DNA from: Verrucomicrobiales bacterium
GTDB lineage: Bacteria > Verrucomicrobiota > Verrucomicrobiia > Verrucomicrobiales > DEV007
Direction: 5' to 3'
NCBI GenBank assembly: GCA_029213195.1
Contig: JARGNI010000052.1
Coordinates: 1 to 33,647 of the forward strand
DNA length: 33,647 bases
Part shown: piece after piece, positions 20,035 to 29,138 of the stretch
How the letters are laid out: every line of letters starts with the position of its first letter
How positions within the stretch are numbered: the first letter of the stretch is position 1
Program-made: the position numbers and the translations under genes
The notes under the pieces: model-generated
Seen by the model: only the letters and a program-made list of their open reading frames with translations
Database searches by the model: none
Told to the model about the DNA's origin: nothing

Positions 20035-20065
20035 AACCCTGTTGAATGGATGACCAAACCCTGTT
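20035..20065. promoter_or_regulatory. Pair of 9-bp direct repeats (AACCCTGTT) between divergent genes
   Basis: AACCCTGTT occurs at 20035-20043 and again at 20057-20065. The start-to-start distance of 22 bases equals two helical turns, so a protein could bind both on one DNA face. The pair lies between the octahaem cytochrome start (19981, minus) and the methyltransferase start (20079, plus). A weak promoter-like pair (TTGAAT at 20042, TTTACT at 20064) overlaps it. Confidence 0.35.
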
Positions 20066-20078
20066 TACTAGGGGGAAC

Positions 20079-21095
20079 ATGCCGGATTTACGAGCATTTC
20101 TCCAACAGACTTTTGAGAAAACGGGGGGCATCATGCCGTTCGAGAACTTCATGGCGATGGCGCTCTACGATCCTCGCTTTGGTTACTACTCGAACGGGAT
20201 CGAGACGGTTGGGGGGGCGAGAGGTGACTTTGCGACCGCTGCCACCCTGTCCGGTGGCCTTGGGCGGGCGATCGGGTCCTGGATCCGGGAGTCGGAAGAG
20301 GAGTTCGGGAAATTGCCGGTCATCGAGGTCGGGGCCGGCACGGGAGATCTCGCGAAGGAAGTGCTCAAATCCTTTGGATGGTGGAAGCGTCGGCACGTCG
20401 ATTATCACATAGTCGATGTCTCCGAGCCTCTCCGAAAACGGCAAAAAGAGAACCTCAAGGGATTGCCGGTCACCTGGCATACCGGTATTTCCGAAGCCCT
20501 CGATGCGGTAGACGGACGCGCCCTGATTTTCTCCAACGAACTGGTCGACGCCTTTCCCGCGAAATGGTTTTCCTGGAGCGAGATCGAGCAGTGTTGGCTC
20601 GAGATTTTCGTAAAATTCGATTCTCGGAAAGGGATCGAGGAGATCTTTCGGCCCTTGCCAAAAGGCTTCCCCGATTTTGCCTACTCGGCATTGCAGTTGC
20701 CGAATCTGGAGCAGGAGCAGCGAGTCGAGATCCAACCGCTGTATCAACGCTGGCTGGCGAACCTGGCCGAGCATTGGAAAGAAGGGCTGCTCCTGACGAT
20801 CGACTACGGAGGAACGCCCGAGGAGATCTATGAACGACGTCCTGGAGGCAGCTTGCGAGCTTACTATAAGCAAGATCGCATCGAGGGAGCGGGAATCTAT
20901 CAGCGTTTTGGAAAACAGGATCTGACCGTCGATGTGAACTTCACCGACCTGCAGAACTGGGGAGATGAGTTCGATTTTGATATGGTGTCGGAGAGCTCCC
21001 AGGCAGAGTTTCTCAATCGATTCGGGGAAGGGGACGATGCCATGGCGGGATCGGGTCCCGGCGAAGCGTTTCGAGTCCTCGAGCAACGCCGGTGA
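20079..21095 (+). CDS. MidA-like SAM-dependent methyltransferase (Methyltransf_28, NDUFAF7 family)
   Basis: A 338-residue cytoplasmic protein. The start at 20079 is chosen because AGGGGG lies 3 bases upstream of this ATG. The N-terminus has the family signature F-M-A-M-A-L-Y-D-P-R-F-G-Y-Y-S. G-D-F-A-T-A-A-T-L-S follows, then the SAM-binding V-I-E-V-G-A-G-T-G-D-L-A and later F-S-N-E-L-V-D-A-F-P. The eukaryotic relative NDUFAF7 dimethylates an arginine of complex I; the bacterial target is not established. The protein is slightly shorter than many family members. It precedes a 389-base gap before leuA and is divergent from the octahaem cytochrome. No terminator with a T-run follows it, though a REP-like hairpin lies about 115 bases downstream. 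Confidence 0.88.
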   Translation: MPDLRAFLQQTFEKTGGIMPFENFMAMALYDPRFGYYSNGIETVGGARGDFATAATLSGGLGRAIGSWIRESEEEFGKLPVIEVGAGTGDLAKEVLKSFGWWKRRHVDYHIVDVSEPLRKRQKENLKGLPVTWHTGISEALDAVDGRALIFSNELVDAFPAKWFSWSEIEQCWLEIFVKFDSRKGIEEIFRPLPKGFPDFAYSALQLPNLEQEQRVEIQPLYQRWLANLAEHWKEGLLLTIDYGGTPEEIYERRPGGSLRAYYKQDRIEGAGIYQRFGKQDLTVDVNFTDLQNWGDEFDFDMVSESSQAEFLNRFGEGDDAMAGSGPGEAFRVLEQRR

Positions 21096-21209
21096 GCGGG
21101 CGTGAAGAAAACTTGAAGACATTTACCTTTCAATTTCTCATCGACGAGATGGAGGGACATCATCCTCGATGTCAGCAGATCGTGCGGTAACGGGAGTAAA
21201 AGAGCGAAC

Positions 21210-21229
21210 GGACCGCGAGGACGCGGTCC
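21210..21229. repeat. REP-like palindrome (8-bp stem, 4-base loop)
   Basis: GGACCGCG (21210-21217) and CGCGGTCC (21222-21229) form a perfect stem closed by an AGGA loop, followed by CTCCTGC rather than a T-run. It lies in the gap between the methyltransferase and leuA. The form resembles repetitive extragenic palindromes, but copy number cannot be counted from a single window. It could also help stop read-through from the upstream gene. Confidence 0.5.
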
Positions 21230-21275
21230 CTCCTGCTCGGGGATCCCTCCGATTTCATTCACACCCCAAATGAGA

Positions 21276-21304
21276 TTGCGACTGGACAGAGGGCCTTTTA
21301 AAAC
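21276..21304 (+). promoter_or_regulatory. Probable leuA promoter
   Basis: TTGCGA (21276-21281) and TAAAAC (21299-21304) are separated by 17 bases. Each matches four of six positions of the bacterial sigma-70 consensus. Transcription would begin near 21311, about 10 bases before the leader-peptide ATG and upstream of the attenuator. That is where an attenuated leuA promoter should lie. Confidence 0.45.
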
Positions 21305-21319
21305 TAGGTTTCCTCACGG

Positions 21320-21391
21320 ATGAAAGCTTTGACACTTCGCACCGAAATTCCTGCTCTCCCGCTCGCTCTCGAGCTGGTGCTACTGGGCTGA
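21320..21391 (+). CDS. leuA leader peptide (23 residues, leucine-rich)
   Basis: ATG at 21320 to TGA at 21389-21391 encodes 23 residues, eight of which are leucine. Ile and Val also occur. The control segment just before the stop reads L-E-L-V-L-L-G and includes the less common codon CTA. Leucine shortage should stall the ribosome here. No good Shine-Dalgarno is seen; the proposed transcript start leaves only about 10 bases of 5' leader. The last codons overlap the left arm of the 1:2 hairpin of the attenuator. Attenuation leaders are known for leu operons in several phyla; this peptide is not related in sequence to the enterobacterial one. Confidence 0.7.
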   Translation: MKALTLRTEIPALPLALELVLLG

Positions 21392-21467
21392 TCTGCCCGG
21401 TATCGTCATTTCTTCCAACTTCTGAACTCCCGTTTTGTGGGGCAGTGCGTCCCGATTTTTCCTTTTT
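21383..21467 (+). promoter_or_regulatory. Leucine attenuator of leuA (1:2, 2:3 and 3:4 pairings)
   Basis: Three mutually exclusive pairings are visible. Segment 1 (CTGGGC, 21383-21388) pairs with segment 2 (GCCCGG, 21395-21400) around a 6-base loop that includes the leader stop codon. Segment 2 (CTGCCC, 21393-21398) can instead pair exactly with segment 3 (GGGCAG, 21440-21445). Segment 3 (GGGGC, 21439-21443) can otherwise pair with segment 4 (GTCCC, 21449-21453) to form a terminator. A ribosome stalled on the Leu codons would cover segment 1 and allow the antiterminator. A ribosome at the stop codon would cover segment 2 and allow termination. The pairing logic is seen in the sequence; in-vivo operation is inferred. 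Confidence 0.72.
21439..21467 (+). terminator. Attenuator terminator upstream of leuA
   Basis: GGGGC (21439-21443) and GTCCC (21449-21453) form a 5-bp GC-rich stem with one G-U pair and a 5-base loop. It is followed by T5 at 21456-21460 and T5 at 21463-21467. It ends 17 bases before the leuA ATG, which fits an attenuator better than the end of an upstream gene, the nearest of which stops 340 bases earlier. Confidence 0.68.
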
Positions 21468-21484
21468 CCAAAAACCCAAGAACC

Positions 21485-23182
21485 ATGAATCCTGAATCCA
21501 TCCAGAAATATCGACCGTTTCCGGCGGTCGAGTTGCCGGACCGCCAATGGCCGGACCGGACGATCATGCATGCCCCGATCTGGTGCAGCGTCGACCTTCG
21601 CGACGGGAATCAGGCGCTACCCATTCCGATGAGCGTGGAAGAGAAGATCCGGCTCTTCGATCAGTTGGTTCGGATCGGGTTCAAGCAGATCGAGGTGGGT
21701 TTTCCTTCCGCCGCCGATACGGAGTTCAATTTTCTCCGGGCACTCGTCGAACAGGACTTGATCCCCGACGACGTTACCATCCAGGTGCTGGTGCAAGCGC
21801 GCGAACACTTGATCCGGCGGACTTTCGAAAGTCTGGCCGGCGTGAAAAAAGCGATCGTCCATCTCTACAACTCGACCTCCCCTCTGCAGCGACGGGTCAC
21901 CTTTGGCGATGCTTCGAAGGAGAAGATCAAGCAGATCGCCGTCGAGGGAGCCGAGTTGATCAAGGAACTCGTGCCGACAGTGCCCGATACCGAGATCACC
22001 TTGCAGTATTCGCCCGAGAGCTTCTCGGATACGGAGATGAACTATGCCCTCGAGGTCTGCAATGCCGTTTCCGCCGTCTGGGAGCCGGCTCCGGACAAGA
22101 AGATCATCCTCAACCTGCCGGCGACGGTGGAGTGGTCGACTCCCAATGTGCACGCCGATCAGATCGAGTGGTTCTGTCGTCACGTCGACAACCGCGAGAA
22201 TTCCATCATCAGCTTGCACACCCACAACGATCGTGGCACGGGAACGGCTGCGACCGAACTCGGTTTGCTTGCTGGTGCGGATCGCGTCGAGGGAACCTTG
22301 TTTGGCAATGGAGAGCGAACCGGGAACCTCGATCTCGTCATCGTCGCATTGAACATGAACAGCCACGGAATCGAGACGGGATTGGATTTCTCGGATCTTT
22401 CCTCGATTCGCCAAGTCTATGAGGAGGTGACCCGATTGACCGTTCCGGAACGTCAGCCCTATGCGGGAGAGCTCGTCTTCACTGCTTTCTCCGGGAGCCA
22501 CCAGGATGCGATCAAGAAAGGCTTCGATCGCCGAAAGAGCGACGTCGAAGAAAACGACGAGGCCTACCCCTGGGGCGTTCCCTATCTGACCATCGATCCG
22601 CAGGACATCGGTCGCAGCTACGAGGCCATCATCCGGATCAACAGCCAGAGCGGGAAAGGAGGCGTCGCCTATGTGCTCGATCGCGAGCATGGGTTCGATC
22701 TTCCCAAGGCGATGCACCCGCAGGTCGGAAAGTATGTCTATGATCGTGCCGACCAGGAAGGACGCGAGCTGAGCAATGAGGAGATCGGAGACATTTTCTT
22801 CGAAAGTTTCGTCAATCTCGAGACCCCGATGCAATTGATCGAGTTCGAGCTGGATCACACGGCAATGGCGCGGGGAGAAGTGGTCTGTCATGCGACCGTG
22901 AGAATCGGGGACGAAGAGATCAAGGGGACGGGAAAAGGCAATGGCCCCATCAATGCTTTCGTTCACTTGCTGGAAGAAGCGGGACAGAAAGACTTCAATG
23001 TCACCGACTACCGAAGCCAGGCGCTGCGAGGTGGATCCGATGCGGATTCGGCGGCTTATGTTCAAATTCGTGATGAGAAATCCGGCACCCTGCTCTGGGG
23101 CTGCGGGATCGATCCCTCCATCGAGATGGCCGGTCTCAAGGCACTCATCTGTGCGTGGAATCTCCAACAAACCACCAAGTGA
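21485..23182 (+). CDS. leuA: 2-isopropylmalate synthase, type II
   Basis: A 565-residue cytoplasmic enzyme catalysing the first committed step of leucine synthesis: acetyl-CoA plus 2-oxoisovalerate to 2-isopropylmalate. The length and N-terminus (Y-R-P-F-P and D-R-Q-W-P) are those of the long fungal/actinobacterial-type LeuA. The HMGL-like barrel shows S-V-D-L-R-D-G-N-Q-A-L, with R39 and D40, and the metal site H-T-H-N at 245-248. A LeuA-dimer regulatory domain, where leucine feedback normally acts, fills the C-terminus with G-K-G-N-G-P-I-N-A-F. The start at 21485 follows the attenuator; an in-frame ATG at 21437 lies inside the terminator region and is rejected. The stop overlaps the ATG of the HAD gene by one base. 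Regulation by leucine attenuation is inferred. Confidence 0.95.
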   Translation: MNPESIQKYRPFPAVELPDRQWPDRTIMHAPIWCSVDLRDGNQALPIPMSVEEKIRLFDQLVRIGFKQIEVGFPSAADTEFNFLRALVEQDLIPDDVTIQVLVQAREHLIRRTFESLAGVKKAIVHLYNSTSPLQRRVTFGDASKEKIKQIAVEGAELIKELVPTVPDTEITLQYSPESFSDTEMNYALEVCNAVSAVWEPAPDKKIILNLPATVEWSTPNVHADQIEWFCRHVDNRENSIISLHTHNDRGTGTAATELGLLAGADRVEGTLFGNGERTGNLDLVIVALNMNSHGIETGLDFSDLSSIRQVYEEVTRLTVPERQPYAGELVFTAFSGSHQDAIKKGFDRRKSDVEENDEAYPWGVPYLTIDPQDIGRSYEAIIRINSQSGKGGVAYVLDREHGFDLPKAMHPQVGKYVYDRADQEGRELSNEEIGDIFFESFVNLETPMQLIEFELDHTAMARGEVVCHATVRIGDEEIKGTGKGNGPINAFVHLLEEAGQKDFNVTDYRSQALRGGSDADSAAYVQIRDEKSGTLLWGCGIDPSIEMAGLKALICAWNLQQTTK

Positions 23183-25566: not shown

Positions 25567-27519
25567 ATGCTGCGAACCTGTTGCCAGCTGTTTTTCTCGT
25601 TCTTCCCCTTTTGGTTCTCAAGCCTCGCACTTGCGATGGAGCCAACGGCGGAAGGGGTTTCCGTCTTCCTCGAGAAATATTGTCTCCAGTGTCATGGGGA
25701 GGGAAAGGTGAAAGGCAAAGTCGACTTTACGACGGTTTCTGCCTCGAGGCCGACTGACGGGGATTTCGATCTCTGGGAACTCGCTTCCGAAGTCGTCGAC
25801 TACGAGGAGATGCCTCCCGAGGAAGAGAAGCAGCCTACCGTGGAGGAAAGGGCCGCTTTCCTGCAATGGTATCGAAACGTTTACGAGAAGGTCGAGGCCA
25901 AGCCTGGGGTTTTCCAGCCGCGACGTCTCTCCGCTCCCGAGTATCGAAACACGATGCGTTCTGTTTTTGGGTTTGATCTGGAGAACAAGGTCATCGCCGC
26001 TGAGCAGACCGTGACCGAACCATCGCTGATCCTGAAGCTCATGCCTACGGATCCGCCGGGAGAAAGTGGCTACATCAACGACACACACGCTGCCTCCCTT
26101 TCGACGCATCTCTGGGATCAGTATGCCTATTTTTCAGAAGCGGCGGTGAATCAGCTCTTTGCCAGGGTACGGCGTCCCCAGTTGGAAGATCTCGTTGGAA
26201 AGGAGCTTCCGGGAGATTTCACTCCCACTTCCCTGACGCAAACTCAGGCGGCCGCGCTTCTCGAAAACTTTGCGAATCGCGCCTTTCGCCGTCCGATACC
26301 GGAAGAGATGCTGAAGGAAAAATTGGAGAAGATTGCGGGTCTGTCAGGAAATCGATTGCTTCGGGCGGTCAAGTTCGAGATGCGTGCCGTTCTCATGTCT
26401 CCCGCCTTTTTCTACCGCGGCATGATGATGCCTCAGAGCCCGGGAAAACAGCAATCGGTGGACAGCTATGAATTGGCCGAACGACTCTCCTATTTTTTCT
26501 GGGAAGACATGCCGGATGAGGAACTTTCTCGGGTCGCTTCCGATGGATCTCTGAATGAACCGGAAGTCTTCCAAGCCCAGGTCCTGCGACTCCTGGAATC
26601 TCCGAGGGCGCGCAGTCTTGCTGAAAGCTTCGCCGTGCAGTGGTTGGTTCTCGATGAAATCGACGATGTCTACGCGGACCCGACGCAACTGCATGCGTTC
26701 AAGAATCAGCCGATTGATTTTCTGAACTACCTCTTTACGGAAAACCGTCCGGTCATGGAGATTATCGACTCCGAAGTGACGTTTGCGAATTACATCACGG
26801 CGTCCATTTATCCGAAGGATCGGCACCAGTTGGCGAAGTATGTCAAACCGAAGGGCATTGAAAGAGCTTCGGTTCCGAATCAGAAGATTCGGCTCGAGAA
26901 AACCGAAGGACGTGGGGGGCTTCTCACGATGCCTGCGATCCTCGCGATGAATCATGGCCCGATCATCCGGGGCACCTGGACCCTTCGACATATCCTCGGA
27001 GAGCACCTGGGAGAGCCACCGGCCGACATTCCTCCCATCGAATCCACCGCGGGTGACCGGTCGCTGAGTTTTCGTGAGAAGTTTGCGAGACATCGTTCGG
27101 ATGCCGCTTGTGCTCGGTGTCATGACAAGATCGATCCTCTCGGTTTTGCGTTCGAGGCCTACAACGACAAGGGAGGGTTTCTACTGGGCCGGGACAAGAA
27201 AGCTCTGCCCAAGTTGGTCAGTGGAAAGAGTTCGTCGGGAAATCAAATCGACCCCTCGGGCAAGTTGCCAACAGGAGAGACATTTGCGAATTTCGAGGAA
27301 CTGAAACAAATCCTCATGACAAGTCGGCGGGAGGACATCGTTCGCAACATTGTCGAACAGGTTCTTTCCTATGCCCTTTGCCGTGACCTGGAAGCTTACG
27401 ACGCGCCTACGGTCGATTCGATTACGGAAACGATTGTCAATTCGAACGGCAGTTGGCAGGATCTCTTTCTCGAAGTGGTCAACAGCCTGCCTTTCCGTGA
27501 GACTGTTTTCCCAGAGTGA
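25567..27519 (+). CDS. Secreted planctomycete-type cytochrome with DUF1587/DUF1592/DUF1588/DUF1585 domains
   Basis: A 650-residue exported protein with a signal peptide (residues 1-23). A cytochrome-like haem site, C-L-Q-C-H, is at 39-43. R-R-L-S-A-P-E-Y-R-N-T-M-R-S-V-F-G marks DUF1587. DUF1592 follows, with E-L-A-E-R-L-S-Y-F-F-W. DUF1588 follows with R-G-T-W-T-L-R-H-I-L-G. A second haem motif, C-A-R-C-H, is at 515-519 within D-K-I-D-P-L-G-F-A-F-E. The C-terminus matches DUF1585. These large cytochromes are abundant in Planctomycetota and Verrucomicrobiota and almost always sit beside a DUF1552 protein, as here; their reaction is unknown. The gene is divergent from the Na/Pi cotransporter (97 bases) and cotranscribed with the next gene. 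Confidence 0.93.
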   Translation: MLRTCCQLFFSFFPFWFSSLALAMEPTAEGVSVFLEKYCLQCHGEGKVKGKVDFTTVSASRPTDGDFDLWELASEVVDYEEMPPEEEKQPTVEERAAFLQWYRNVYEKVEAKPGVFQPRRLSAPEYRNTMRSVFGFDLENKVIAAEQTVTEPSLILKLMPTDPPGESGYINDTHAASLSTHLWDQYAYFSEAAVNQLFARVRRPQLEDLVGKELPGDFTPTSLTQTQAAALLENFANRAFRRPIPEEMLKEKLEKIAGLSGNRLLRAVKFEMRAVLMSPAFFYRGMMMPQSPGKQQSVDSYELAERLSYFFWEDMPDEELSRVASDGSLNEPEVFQAQVLRLLESPRARSLAESFAVQWLVLDEIDDVYADPTQLHAFKNQPIDFLNYLFTENRPVMEIIDSEVTFANYITASIYPKDRHQLAKYVKPKGIERASVPNQKIRLEKTEGRGGLLTMPAILAMNHGPIIRGTWTLRHILGEHLGEPPADIPPIESTAGDRSLSFREKFARHRSDAACARCHDKIDPLGFAFEAYNDKGGFLLGRDKKALPKLVSGKSSSGNQIDPSGKLPTGETFANFEELKQILMTSRREDIVRNIVEQVLSYALCRDLEAYDAPTVDSITETIVNSNGSWQDLFLEVVNSLPFRETVFPE

Positions 27520-27527
27520 TAGAAGTC

Positions 27528-29138
27528 ATGAAACGAAACTGGAGCATAGATCGAAGAACCTTCCTGCGAGGCGCTGCTGGCGCAGCTCTGCCCCTGCCGT
27601 TTTTGAATCTGATGGAGGCAAGCGGAGCATCCGATGCCACCAACCTGGCCGGGGACGAGGGCCCTCCGGTGCGTTTCCTGTCACTCTTCAAACCCAACGG
27701 TGTGCATCCTCCTTCCTGGAATATCAACGGTGGAACGGAACATGATTTCCGAATGTCCCCCCTCATGGCACCCTTTTCCCAGCACAAGGATGACCTGCTC
27801 ATCCTGGACAATATGGGGGACTATGGCTTTTCCTCTCATGCGAATTCCACGCGTCGATTCCTGAGTGGGCACCATCAGAATACGAATCAGGCTTCCCTCG
27901 ATCAGATTCTCGCGGACCATATCGGAAGGGAAACTCGTCACCGATCACTCGAACTGACGACCGAGGGGCTTTTCCCAGGGCAGATTGGGTGCAGTTACAT
28001 TTCTTACGGACCGGGTGGGGAGAGACTTCCCCGGGAAAGTGATCCCCAGCTGATCTTCGACCGCCTATTTCGGCATCCCATGGCGGTTCCTTCGAAGCGA
28101 AGAGAGATGAGTAGTCTTCTCGATCGCGTCAGTGACGATGCGAAGTCGCTGCAGAGGAAGGCAGGAAGCGAGGATCGAGATACTCTCGAGGAATACCTCT
28201 CGGTCGTCCGCGACACAGAGAAGCGCATCGAGAGGATGGAGGAAAATGCGAGTCCTCCTTCAATCAACTTCGAGGATCTCGAGCGACCACCTCTCGCCAC
28301 GAATCTCGATGATCAGGTCAATGCGATGATCGACCTGATCGCTCTTGCACTCTGGACGGATTCGACTCGTTGCGCCACCTACATGCTGGGGAATAGCAAC
28401 AGTCGCATGATTTTTGATTTCCTCGGGGTGAAGGAACAACACCACTACCTGTCTCACTTTTTCCGGAACTTCAGCCGAGAGAATATCGATGGCCTGCTCA
28501 AGATCAGCTTGTGGCATATGGAGAAGTTCGACTACCTGCTCACGAGGTTGAAGTCCTTCAAGGATCAAGAGGGCACCCTGCTTGATCATACGGTCGTTCT
28601 CTTTGGTTCCGGTATGGGGCACAGCGACAATCATACAGCCCAGCGGGTTCCCACGATCCTCGCCGGGAAGGGTGGCGGAATGCTCAAGACAGGGCGGTAT
28701 CTCCGCTATGCCGAGAACCAGGAACTGGGGAATCTTCACCTTGCCCTGATGCAGGGGTTTGGGGTTCCAGTAGATACCTTCGCGAATTCATCGAAGCCAA
28801 TCCAGGGATTGGACGGCAGTCCTTTCGAGATGTATCAAGAGCGCCCCTTCGAGAGCTGGATCAAGCTGACCAGTGGAAAGATCACGGTTCAGGGGCGGCT
28901 CGTGATGTCCGAGAACCTCGACGAGGCCAAGACATTCTACATGGAGGTCGAAGGGAAAGATCCTGTCCGGGTCGAGGTCAGCTTCCGCGACTTTCACAAC
29001 TTCAACCTGGCCTACCACGTGGGAACTCCGATCACGCTTTCGGGGAATCGTTCGGACAAGAACGGCCAGTTGTTGATGACGAAAGTGACCGAGCTCAAGT
29101 CCGTTTTTGGGAAGAGCGACCCGCGGAAGGCCGGATAG
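27528..29138 (+). CDS. Tat-exported DUF1552 protein with a C-terminal extension
   Basis: A 536-residue exported protein. The start at 27528 gives a Tat signal, R-R-T-F-L-R-G (Arg9-Arg10). The DUF1552 core runs to about residue 440, with F-K-P-N-G-V-H-P, S-S-H-A-N-S-T-R-R-F-L-S-G, R-E-S-D-P-Q-L-I-F-D-R-L-F and F-G-S-G-M-G-H-S-D-N-H. The last 90 or so residues (from S-G-K-I-T-V-Q-G-R-L-V) are an extra beta-rich segment that resembles an OB-like fold. The gene begins 8 bases after the DUF1592 stop and is followed by a hairpin with a T-run. The conserved His/Asp/Asn-rich block is reminiscent of alkaline-phosphatase-fold proteins (DUF1501 relatives), but no activity is established. Confidence 0.9.
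   Translation: MKRNWSIDRRTFLRGAAGAALPLPFLNLMEASGASDATNLAGDEGPPVRFLSLFKPNGVHPPSWNINGGTEHDFRMSPLMAPFSQHKDDLLILDNMGDYGFSSHANSTRRFLSGHHQNTNQASLDQILADHIGRETRHRSLELTTEGLFPGQIGCSYISYGPGGERLPRESDPQLIFDRLFRHPMAVPSKRREMSSLLDRVSDDAKSLQRKAGSEDRDTLEEYLSVVRDTEKRIERMEENASPPSINFEDLERPPLATNLDDQVNAMIDLIALALWTDSTRCATYMLGNSNSRMIFDFLGVKEQHHYLSHFFRNFSRENIDGLLKISLWHMEKFDYLLTRLKSFKDQEGTLLDHTVVLFGSGMGHSDNHTAQRVPTILAGKGGGMLKTGRYLRYAENQELGNLHLALMQGFGVPVDTFANSSKPIQGLDGSPFEMYQERPFESWIKLTSGKITVQGRLVMSENLDEAKTFYMEVEGKDPVRVEVSFRDFHNFNLAYHVGTPITLSGNRSDKNGQLLMTKVTELKSVFGKSDPRKAG

Follow-up and report, generated by a model that had tools for sequence, protein, structure and literature searches.

Leader-peptide attenuation is a textbook kind of switch, and most documented amino-acid leader peptides come from Proteobacteria, Actinobacteria and some Firmicutes. 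Passages of a 2010 survey state that, ermC apart, no such case had been shown outside Proteobacteria and Actinobacteria before the Firmicutes case that the survey itself presents (PMC2965389). The enteric his, leu and trp attenuators, as portrayed in sections of PMC1183508, combine a leader ORF rich in codons for the pathway amino acid with a terminator-like hairpin before the first gene, and both features recur at the locus described here. By gene, the closest known system is the actinobacterial LEU element, which likewise joins leuA with a Leu-rich upstream ORF and a conserved RNA fold. Parts of its description present this fold as a pseudoknot whose base stem pairs Leu codons with the Shine-Dalgarno box of leuA, and argue that the fold binds a protein or small molecule, the ORF being incidental or a translation booster (PMC1262725). 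Control by a Leu-rich leader peptide is also described for the BCAA operon of Staphylococcus aureus; this attenuator peptide, going by excerpts of PMC5794164, comes from a Firmicutes species and a different operon, and is likened to our locus by its leader peptide alone. Upstream of cysS in Rhodobacterales, uORFC-8-2 is, according to portions of PMC8632094, an order-restricted structured leader whose uORF contains codons of the regulated amino acid, as here, but gene, amino acid, order and structure are all different.

None of the literature matches listed describes a leader of this kind in Verrucomicrobiota, which leaves its absence from print unproven. In the excerpts concerned, joint mentions of Verrucomicrobia and leader peptides relate to erm(B), and elsewhere to the E. 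coli His leader and MgtL; no word beginning with Verrucomicrob occurs in the main texts of PMC2965389, PMC8632094, PMC4833913 and PMC2864571. Here we analyze the region upstream of leuA in a Verrucomicrobiales bacterium (assembly GCA_029213195.1, contig JARGNI010000052.1), for which an earlier note, made from the letters of the DNA alone, had proposed a complete leucine attenuator. The whole stretch of 33,647 nucleotides that was analyzed is called the window.

Results

The leuA locus

The window belongs to a genome of 5.9 Mb in 115 contigs (G000). Its LeuA protein (Table 1) also matches NF002991 (PRK03739) with 803 bits. The leuA frame is open in the 5' direction up to a GTG at 21437, which adjoins hairpin T; the ATG at 21485, at which the relatives align, is the likely start codon, and no purine-rich Shine-Dalgarno sequence is visible immediately 5' of leuA in the window. 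A PF02636 methyltransferase gene (20046-21092) lies directly upstream of the leader, and an apparent C-terminal coding sequence of such a methyltransferase is recognizable at the same place in several relatives. Neighbor genes with PSD/PSCyt domains (DUF1592, DUF1588, DUF1585) and one for an HXXSHH (DUF1552) protein are found at 25567-29138.

Table 1. Features of the leuA leader region in the window
Feature	Position	Strand	Description	Basis
Promoter-like site	21283-21310	+	-35 TGGACA 21283-21288, 16-nt spacer, -10 TAGGTT 21305-21310	loose pattern
Leader peptide ORF	21320-21391	+	MKALTLRTEIPALPLALELVLLG, then stop; 23 codons, 8 Leu	ORF list, 30 aligned leaders
Helix P1	21330-21408	+	21330-21333 with 21405-21408; closes junction around P2 and P3	MFE, covariation
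Helix P2	21339-21380	+	GCACC 21339-21343 with GGUGC 21376-21380, plus G21344-U21375	MFE, covariation
Helix P2b	21361-21374	+	GCUCG 21361-21365 with CGAGC 21370-21374, within P2	MFE, covariation
Helix P3	21381-21402	+	21381-21388 with 21395-21402; leader stop codon in loop	MFE, covariation
Antiterminator proposed in the earlier note	21393-21445	+	CTGCCC 21393-21398 with GGGCAG 21440-21445	complementarity
Conserved CCAACTTC segment	21415-21422	+	3' of P1	recognizable in most genus-group leaders
Hairpin P4 region	21428-21443	+	CCC...GGG; exclusive with T; weak in window	covariation rank fifth
Terminator-like hairpin T	21438-21454	+	6 bp with closing U-G, loop AGUGC	terminator scan; -8.1 kcal/mol
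Split T-tract	21456-21467	+	TTTTT CC TTTTT	at least 4 T next to T in 24/30
leuA	21485-23182	+	yeast-type 2-isopropylmalate synthase	TIGR00970, 730 bits (cut-off 697)

Distribution in the genus and family

A LeuA match, distant paralogues included, was obtained in 55 of the 56 genomes searched, 33 of which belong to the window's genus (G000 counted). Within the genus, a covariance model detected the leader element (E < 1e-10) in 27 of these 33 genomes, each time directly upstream of leuA. The leader is missing before leuA in two genomes (G015, locus L023; G017, locus L025), and four are without an intact leuA start, one being cut by a contig end and three having no leuA of this type. Three more strong matches fall in two other genera of the family. 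Conservation among related leuA upstream regions, which the earlier note had named as a check, extends for the ORF and the proposed 1:2 hairpin to most of the genus. The covariance-model search that it had named gave 30 matches with E < 1e-10 in 386 genomes, all directly upstream of leuA, although 29 of them match by construction, either as training leaders or by sharing a score with one (G012 is the exception). Among 17 weaker matches (E 2e-5 to 0.01), seven lie upstream of leuA and seven elsewhere, and for three the place of leuA was not seen.

The remark that such leaders have no standard annotation agrees with Rfam 15, a search of which gave no match in the window at the gathering score. 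Seven leuA loci, searched up to E 1, likewise showed no Rfam 15 match in the leader; the sole match in these loci, sR36 at 4953-5011 of L070, lies outside the leader and far below the gathering score.

Two side observations concern individual genus members. Instead of a leader, L023 and L025 share a short conserved stretch before leuA, consisting of the inverted repeat GCCAAAAGCTTGGC followed by GGGTGGGCG. The leaders of L008 and L010 show an identity of 0.70-0.78 to those of L016-L018 versus 0.57-0.63 to the window's, and their leuA genes are nearer to the window's (0.77-0.80 versus 0.71-0.74 to L016-L018); the leader region of these two loci may have been exchanged separately from leuA.

Leader ORF and promoter-like site

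The predicted 23-residue leader ORF with eight Leu codons is present at 21320-21391. Dinucleotide shuffling of 21200-21484 produced an ATG ORF of 15-35 residues with at least eight Leu in 6 of 2000 cases, and in 62 of 2000 when GTG and TTG starts were also allowed. The peptide comprises 23 residues in 23 of the 30 aligned leaders and 19, 24, 27 or 28 in the rest, and Leu accounts for 30% of the 708 leader-peptide residues in this set. All 23 leaders of equal length have Leu at codon 21, encoded by four different codons, and Gly GGC at codon 23, directly before a stop codon that is TGA in 15 and TAG in 8 of them. The synonymous excess of the leader ORF is mild (0.36 in frame versus 0.25 and 0.33 in the other frames), which is perhaps to be expected because RNA pairing constrains the same bases.

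The promoter-like site claimed for the window was missed by one method and recovered by another. A generic promoter scan of 21000-21600 gave no match, and a loose pattern (T-N-GACA or T-N-[GC][AC]CA, spacer of 15-17, TAnnnT, at most 45 nt from the leader ATG) occurs ahead of the leader ATG in 24 of the 26 leaders inspected, including the window's. These 26 were taken from the 30 aligned leaders; in L002 the match ended at an ATG that comes earlier. The two exceptions are L016, which has a similar site further upstream, and L027. Promoter-like sites of the genus group have a spacing of 16-17 nt, and their -10 box ends 9-16 nt before the ATG (9 nt in the window), so that translation from the predicted promoter would begin almost at the 5' end. 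The leader would thus be near-leaderless if this promoter is used.

A conserved RNA fold around the Leu codons

Folding the window's leader as a single sequence was uninformative: the energy for 21300-21484 was no better than chance, with z -1.08 and 21 of 200 shuffles reaching the same level. For the comparison, native and species-swapped duplex energies were contrasted for 3160 alignment-window pairs of the 30 leaders, from the leader ATG to the leuA ATG. The best five distinct helices were, in this order, P2, P2b, P3, P1 and P4, with native minus swapped values of -2.26, -2.05, -2.03, -1.30 and -0.99 kcal/mol against a background of -0.03 kcal/mol (sd 0.28). When the alignment columns were re-evolved independently on the leuA tree, P1, P2, P2b and P3 were each matched by 0 of 200 simulations, values that are approximate because the L008 and L010 leaders look recombined. 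Column counts agree, with 35 cells changed on both sides versus 16.1 in shuffles and 80.6% of cells paired versus 38-44% for slid versions; we prefer the segment-wise swap test to these counts because of misplaced alignment gaps in P3 of a few rows. The leader ORF and the predicted four-helix fold are well supported by these alignments. Of the covarying pairs sought in relatives, those of P3 were found together with P1, P2 and P2b, which the earlier note had missed; its CTGCCC:GGGCAG pairing showed none.

P2 and P2b are constructed around the run of Leu codons: codons 13, 15 and 17 (of the eight) lie wholly within P2, and codon 19 overlaps its 3' arm. The 1:2 hairpin that had been placed at 21383-21400 corresponds to P3 and is 2 bp longer (21381-21402). 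Its loop holds the stop codon, as had been claimed for the window, in 25 of the 30 aligned leaders; in four (L027, L064, L065, L068) the stop codon lies just 3' of the 3' arm, and L024 is ambiguous. P3 is poorly formed in L008 and L024. It is maintained with a coding as well as with a noncoding 3' arm, which points to selection on the RNA.

Terminator-like hairpin and competing pairings

The terminator-like hairpin and the split T-tract are both present, the hairpin spanning 21438-21454 where 21439-21453 had been given. A terminator scan of both strands of 21000-21600 yielded three matches including T, where shuffles gave 0.8 (sd 0.9). A run of at least four T comes right after T in 24 of the 30 genus-group leaders. 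TTTT falls into the bin from -30 to -20 of leuA in 23 of 30 (next highest bin 13), and occurs in 5.7% of background windows (276/4860). Covariation of T is weak (15 of 200 tree simulations as good) and its sequence is conserved; the hairpin itself is weak in L011, L014 and L015 (-0.8 to -3.1 kcal/mol).

The antiterminator proposed in the earlier note is perfectly complementary over 6 bp, and this part of the claim stands. As a conserved element we rejected it: the 30 leaders show no covariation, with a native minus swapped energy of +0.17 kcal/mol and an equal or better result in 125 of 200 tree simulations, and the sequence at the GGGCAG position differs in most of them. In masked-ribosome folding, its probability exceeds 0.2 in three of 30 leaders, the window among them. 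There, with Val20 in the A site of the masked ribosome, the pairing reaches 0.50 and T falls to 0.10; with Leu21 the values are 0.40 and 0.16, compared with 0.59 for T at the stop codon. P4 has marginal covariation, equalled in 4 of 200 tree simulations. Without a ribosome its probability is above that of T in 21 of 30 leaders; in the window P4 stands at 0.11 versus 0.61 for T. Across the leaders, mean P(T) is 0.13-0.23 at every ribosome position, and T at the stop codon exceeds the Leu stalls by more than 0.1 in two of 30; these partition functions describe equilibrium folding. Since T gains at the stop codon in only two leaders and P4 outweighs T in 21, equilibrium folding gives no general switch. 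Since CTGCCC:GGGCAG lacks covariation and exceeds 0.2 in three leaders only, the three-pairing attenuator is not what selection visibly kept; in the window's species it is possible.

Further pairings were considered. Helix P5 (CAACUUC:GAAUUG), a candidate that is attractive by eye in L067, L069, L104 and L108, shows no covariation within the 30 leaders (85/200); its native minus swapped value is -0.69 over 46 rows (four shorter rows dropped, no null computed). Pairing of the P3 5' arm with CCCAAC (29/200) was unconvincing. Low values were obtained for the P2b 3' arm with CCCAAC (4/200), for P2b with the G strand of T (7/200) and for the P2b 3' arm with P4 (13/200), none of which we claim, because their strands are common with P2b and they are tied to GC-rich clades. 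The scan from leader ATG to leuA ATG gave no base stem of the LEU type, in which Leu codons pair with the Shine-Dalgarno box of leuA; seventh in rank came one Leu-codon window with the stretch that precedes leuA (-0.79; native energy a weak -1.58).

Leaders beyond the genus

In 52 non-training leuA loci, 20 places matched the genus model up to E 1, and 16 of these lie upstream of leuA; the outside matches include Roseibacillus and other lineages. A sequence-only model gave 16 matches in 48 non-training loci, all upstream of leuA and two from one record. As this model finds outside leaders about equally well, the matches show homology of sequence, not of structure. CCAACTTC together with a T hairpin carrying an AAYUG-like loop is recognizable in many outside leaders, and CCAACTTC in part of the Roseibacillus-type ones. 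TTTT within 20 nt after T occurs in none of 15 Roseibacillus-type leaders (those of 17 in which T was located by pattern; L083 and L220 are a duplicate pair), and L104, L105 and L108 are likewise without a T-tract. Some Roseibacillus-type leaders have few Leu codons. A swap test within the 17 was too small and clustered to read.

Across the order, a Leu-rich ORF above the 95% shuffle quantile was present in 93 of 151 distinct upstream regions (about 7.5 expected; reverse strand 4/151) and in 67 of 124 outside the aligned set (about 6 expected). These counts include related genomes, so that the regions are not independent of one another, and some ORFs in them are not the leader itself (for example in L077 and L218). 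L092 and L093 (little upstream sequence), L180 and L225 (N) and near-duplicates were left out. Four of the five loci L035-L038 and L043 exceed the quantile.

In other genera, Leu-rich ORFs ending in LLLGLASR or LLLGLATR lie upstream of leuA (L183, L186, L188, L190, L194, L195 and similar loci), many with GTG starts and in an RNA context unlike the window's. They are possibly an older form of the same leader, a reading prompted by the leader ends LLGVSAR in L065 and LLGLSAR in L068. The 14 ilvB loci, one with almost no upstream sequence, gave no convincing Ile/Val/Leu leader and one weak candidate (L260). What precedes ilvB in several genus members (among L255-L265) looks like AT-rich inverted repeats of the GAAAATTGCGATTTTC kind, with no leader peptide in evidence; one such place was found in the genome of the window itself (L265), with at most three mismatches on both strands searched, and 7 of 200 shuffles were as good.

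Discussion

Comparison of related leaders supports the leader ORF, the promoter-like site and the predicted helices P1, P2, P2b and P3, and in the genus group also the terminator-like hairpin T with its T-tract. We consider it probable that these parts form a leucine-responsive, ribosome-mediated attenuator upstream of leuA, and we infer translation of the leader, sensing of leucine, termination at T and P4 as the competing fold. Transcription would start a few nucleotides 5' of the leader ATG, and the Leu-rich peptide would be translated by a ribosome. With ample Leu-tRNA, the ribosome would reach the stop codon at P3 and the transcript would end at T and the T-tract. With scarce Leu-tRNA, it would stall on the Leu codons in P2 and P2b and the downstream RNA would refold, P4 most likely capturing the G strand of T, and RNA polymerase would continue into leuA.

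As in classical attenuators, a short leader ORF with several Leu codons precedes a gene of the leucine pathway. Set against the enteric systems, as far as the sections of PMC1183508 describe them, the locus differs in several respects: no conserved antiterminator of the 2:3 type was found, the T-tract is limited to the genus group, P1 closes the leader into a junction with part of the Leu codons in P2, and the start codon follows the predicted -10 box by 9-16 nt. Unlike the LEU element, as depicted in parts of PMC1262725, the pairings with the best support leave the Leu codons inside the leader, and the genus group has a T-tract.

The evidence has to be weighed against other readings. There is a modest chance that the same Leu-stall sensor has another output, with T serving not as an intrinsic terminator but by way of Rho access, pausing, a bound protein or leuA translation. 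The sequences of T and CCAACTTC are conserved beyond the genus where the T-tract is not (0/15 Roseibacillus-type leaders), the AAYUG-like loop recurs, and T is weak in L011, L014 and L015, all of which favors such an output; the T-tract right after T in 24 of 30 genus-group leaders, against a background of 5.7%, speaks for termination. That the device works exactly as the earlier note described, with CTGCCC:GGGCAG as antiterminator, appears improbable. Its perfect complementarity and the response of the window to masking at Val20 or Leu21, which raises this pairing and lowers T, are what one would expect of it, but the absence of covariation, the low probability in all but three leaders and the different sequence at the GGGCAG position in most of them argue against it.

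An RNA fold that binds a protein or small molecule, the Leu-rich ORF being incidental or a translation booster, seems to us similarly improbable. It would suit the compact junction that the covarying helices form, the maintenance of P3 with a coding or noncoding 3' arm and the mild synonymous excess of the ORF; it accounts poorly for upstream ORFs that are enriched in Leu throughout the order in RNA sequences that differ, and for an invariant Leu at codon 21 that is written with four synonymous codons. Chance, finally, could place a Leu-rich ORF and hairpins in a GC-rich spacer, and the fold of the single sequence is unremarkable; covariation, position and distribution refute this for the conserved parts and make it a negligible explanation overall. 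Attenuation by a translating ribosome that responds to leucine is the reading we prefer.

Looking beyond the genus, we tentatively suggest an order-wide leucine leader family of the Verrucomicrobiales, in which a near-leaderless Leu-rich peptide would be read inside a conserved three-way-junction RNA and the output hairpin (approximately GGRYG-AAYUG-YRYCC) would be conserved apart from the T-tract. The same sensor might then lead to intrinsic termination in one lineage and to another output, possibly via a bound factor, elsewhere; the output step may thus differ between lineages. A leucine leader that spans an order of Verrucomicrobiota, with support from comparison, would bring this mechanism to a further phylum and would supply an annotation that Rfam 15 lacks, and its sensor and output parts could be followed separately through evolution.
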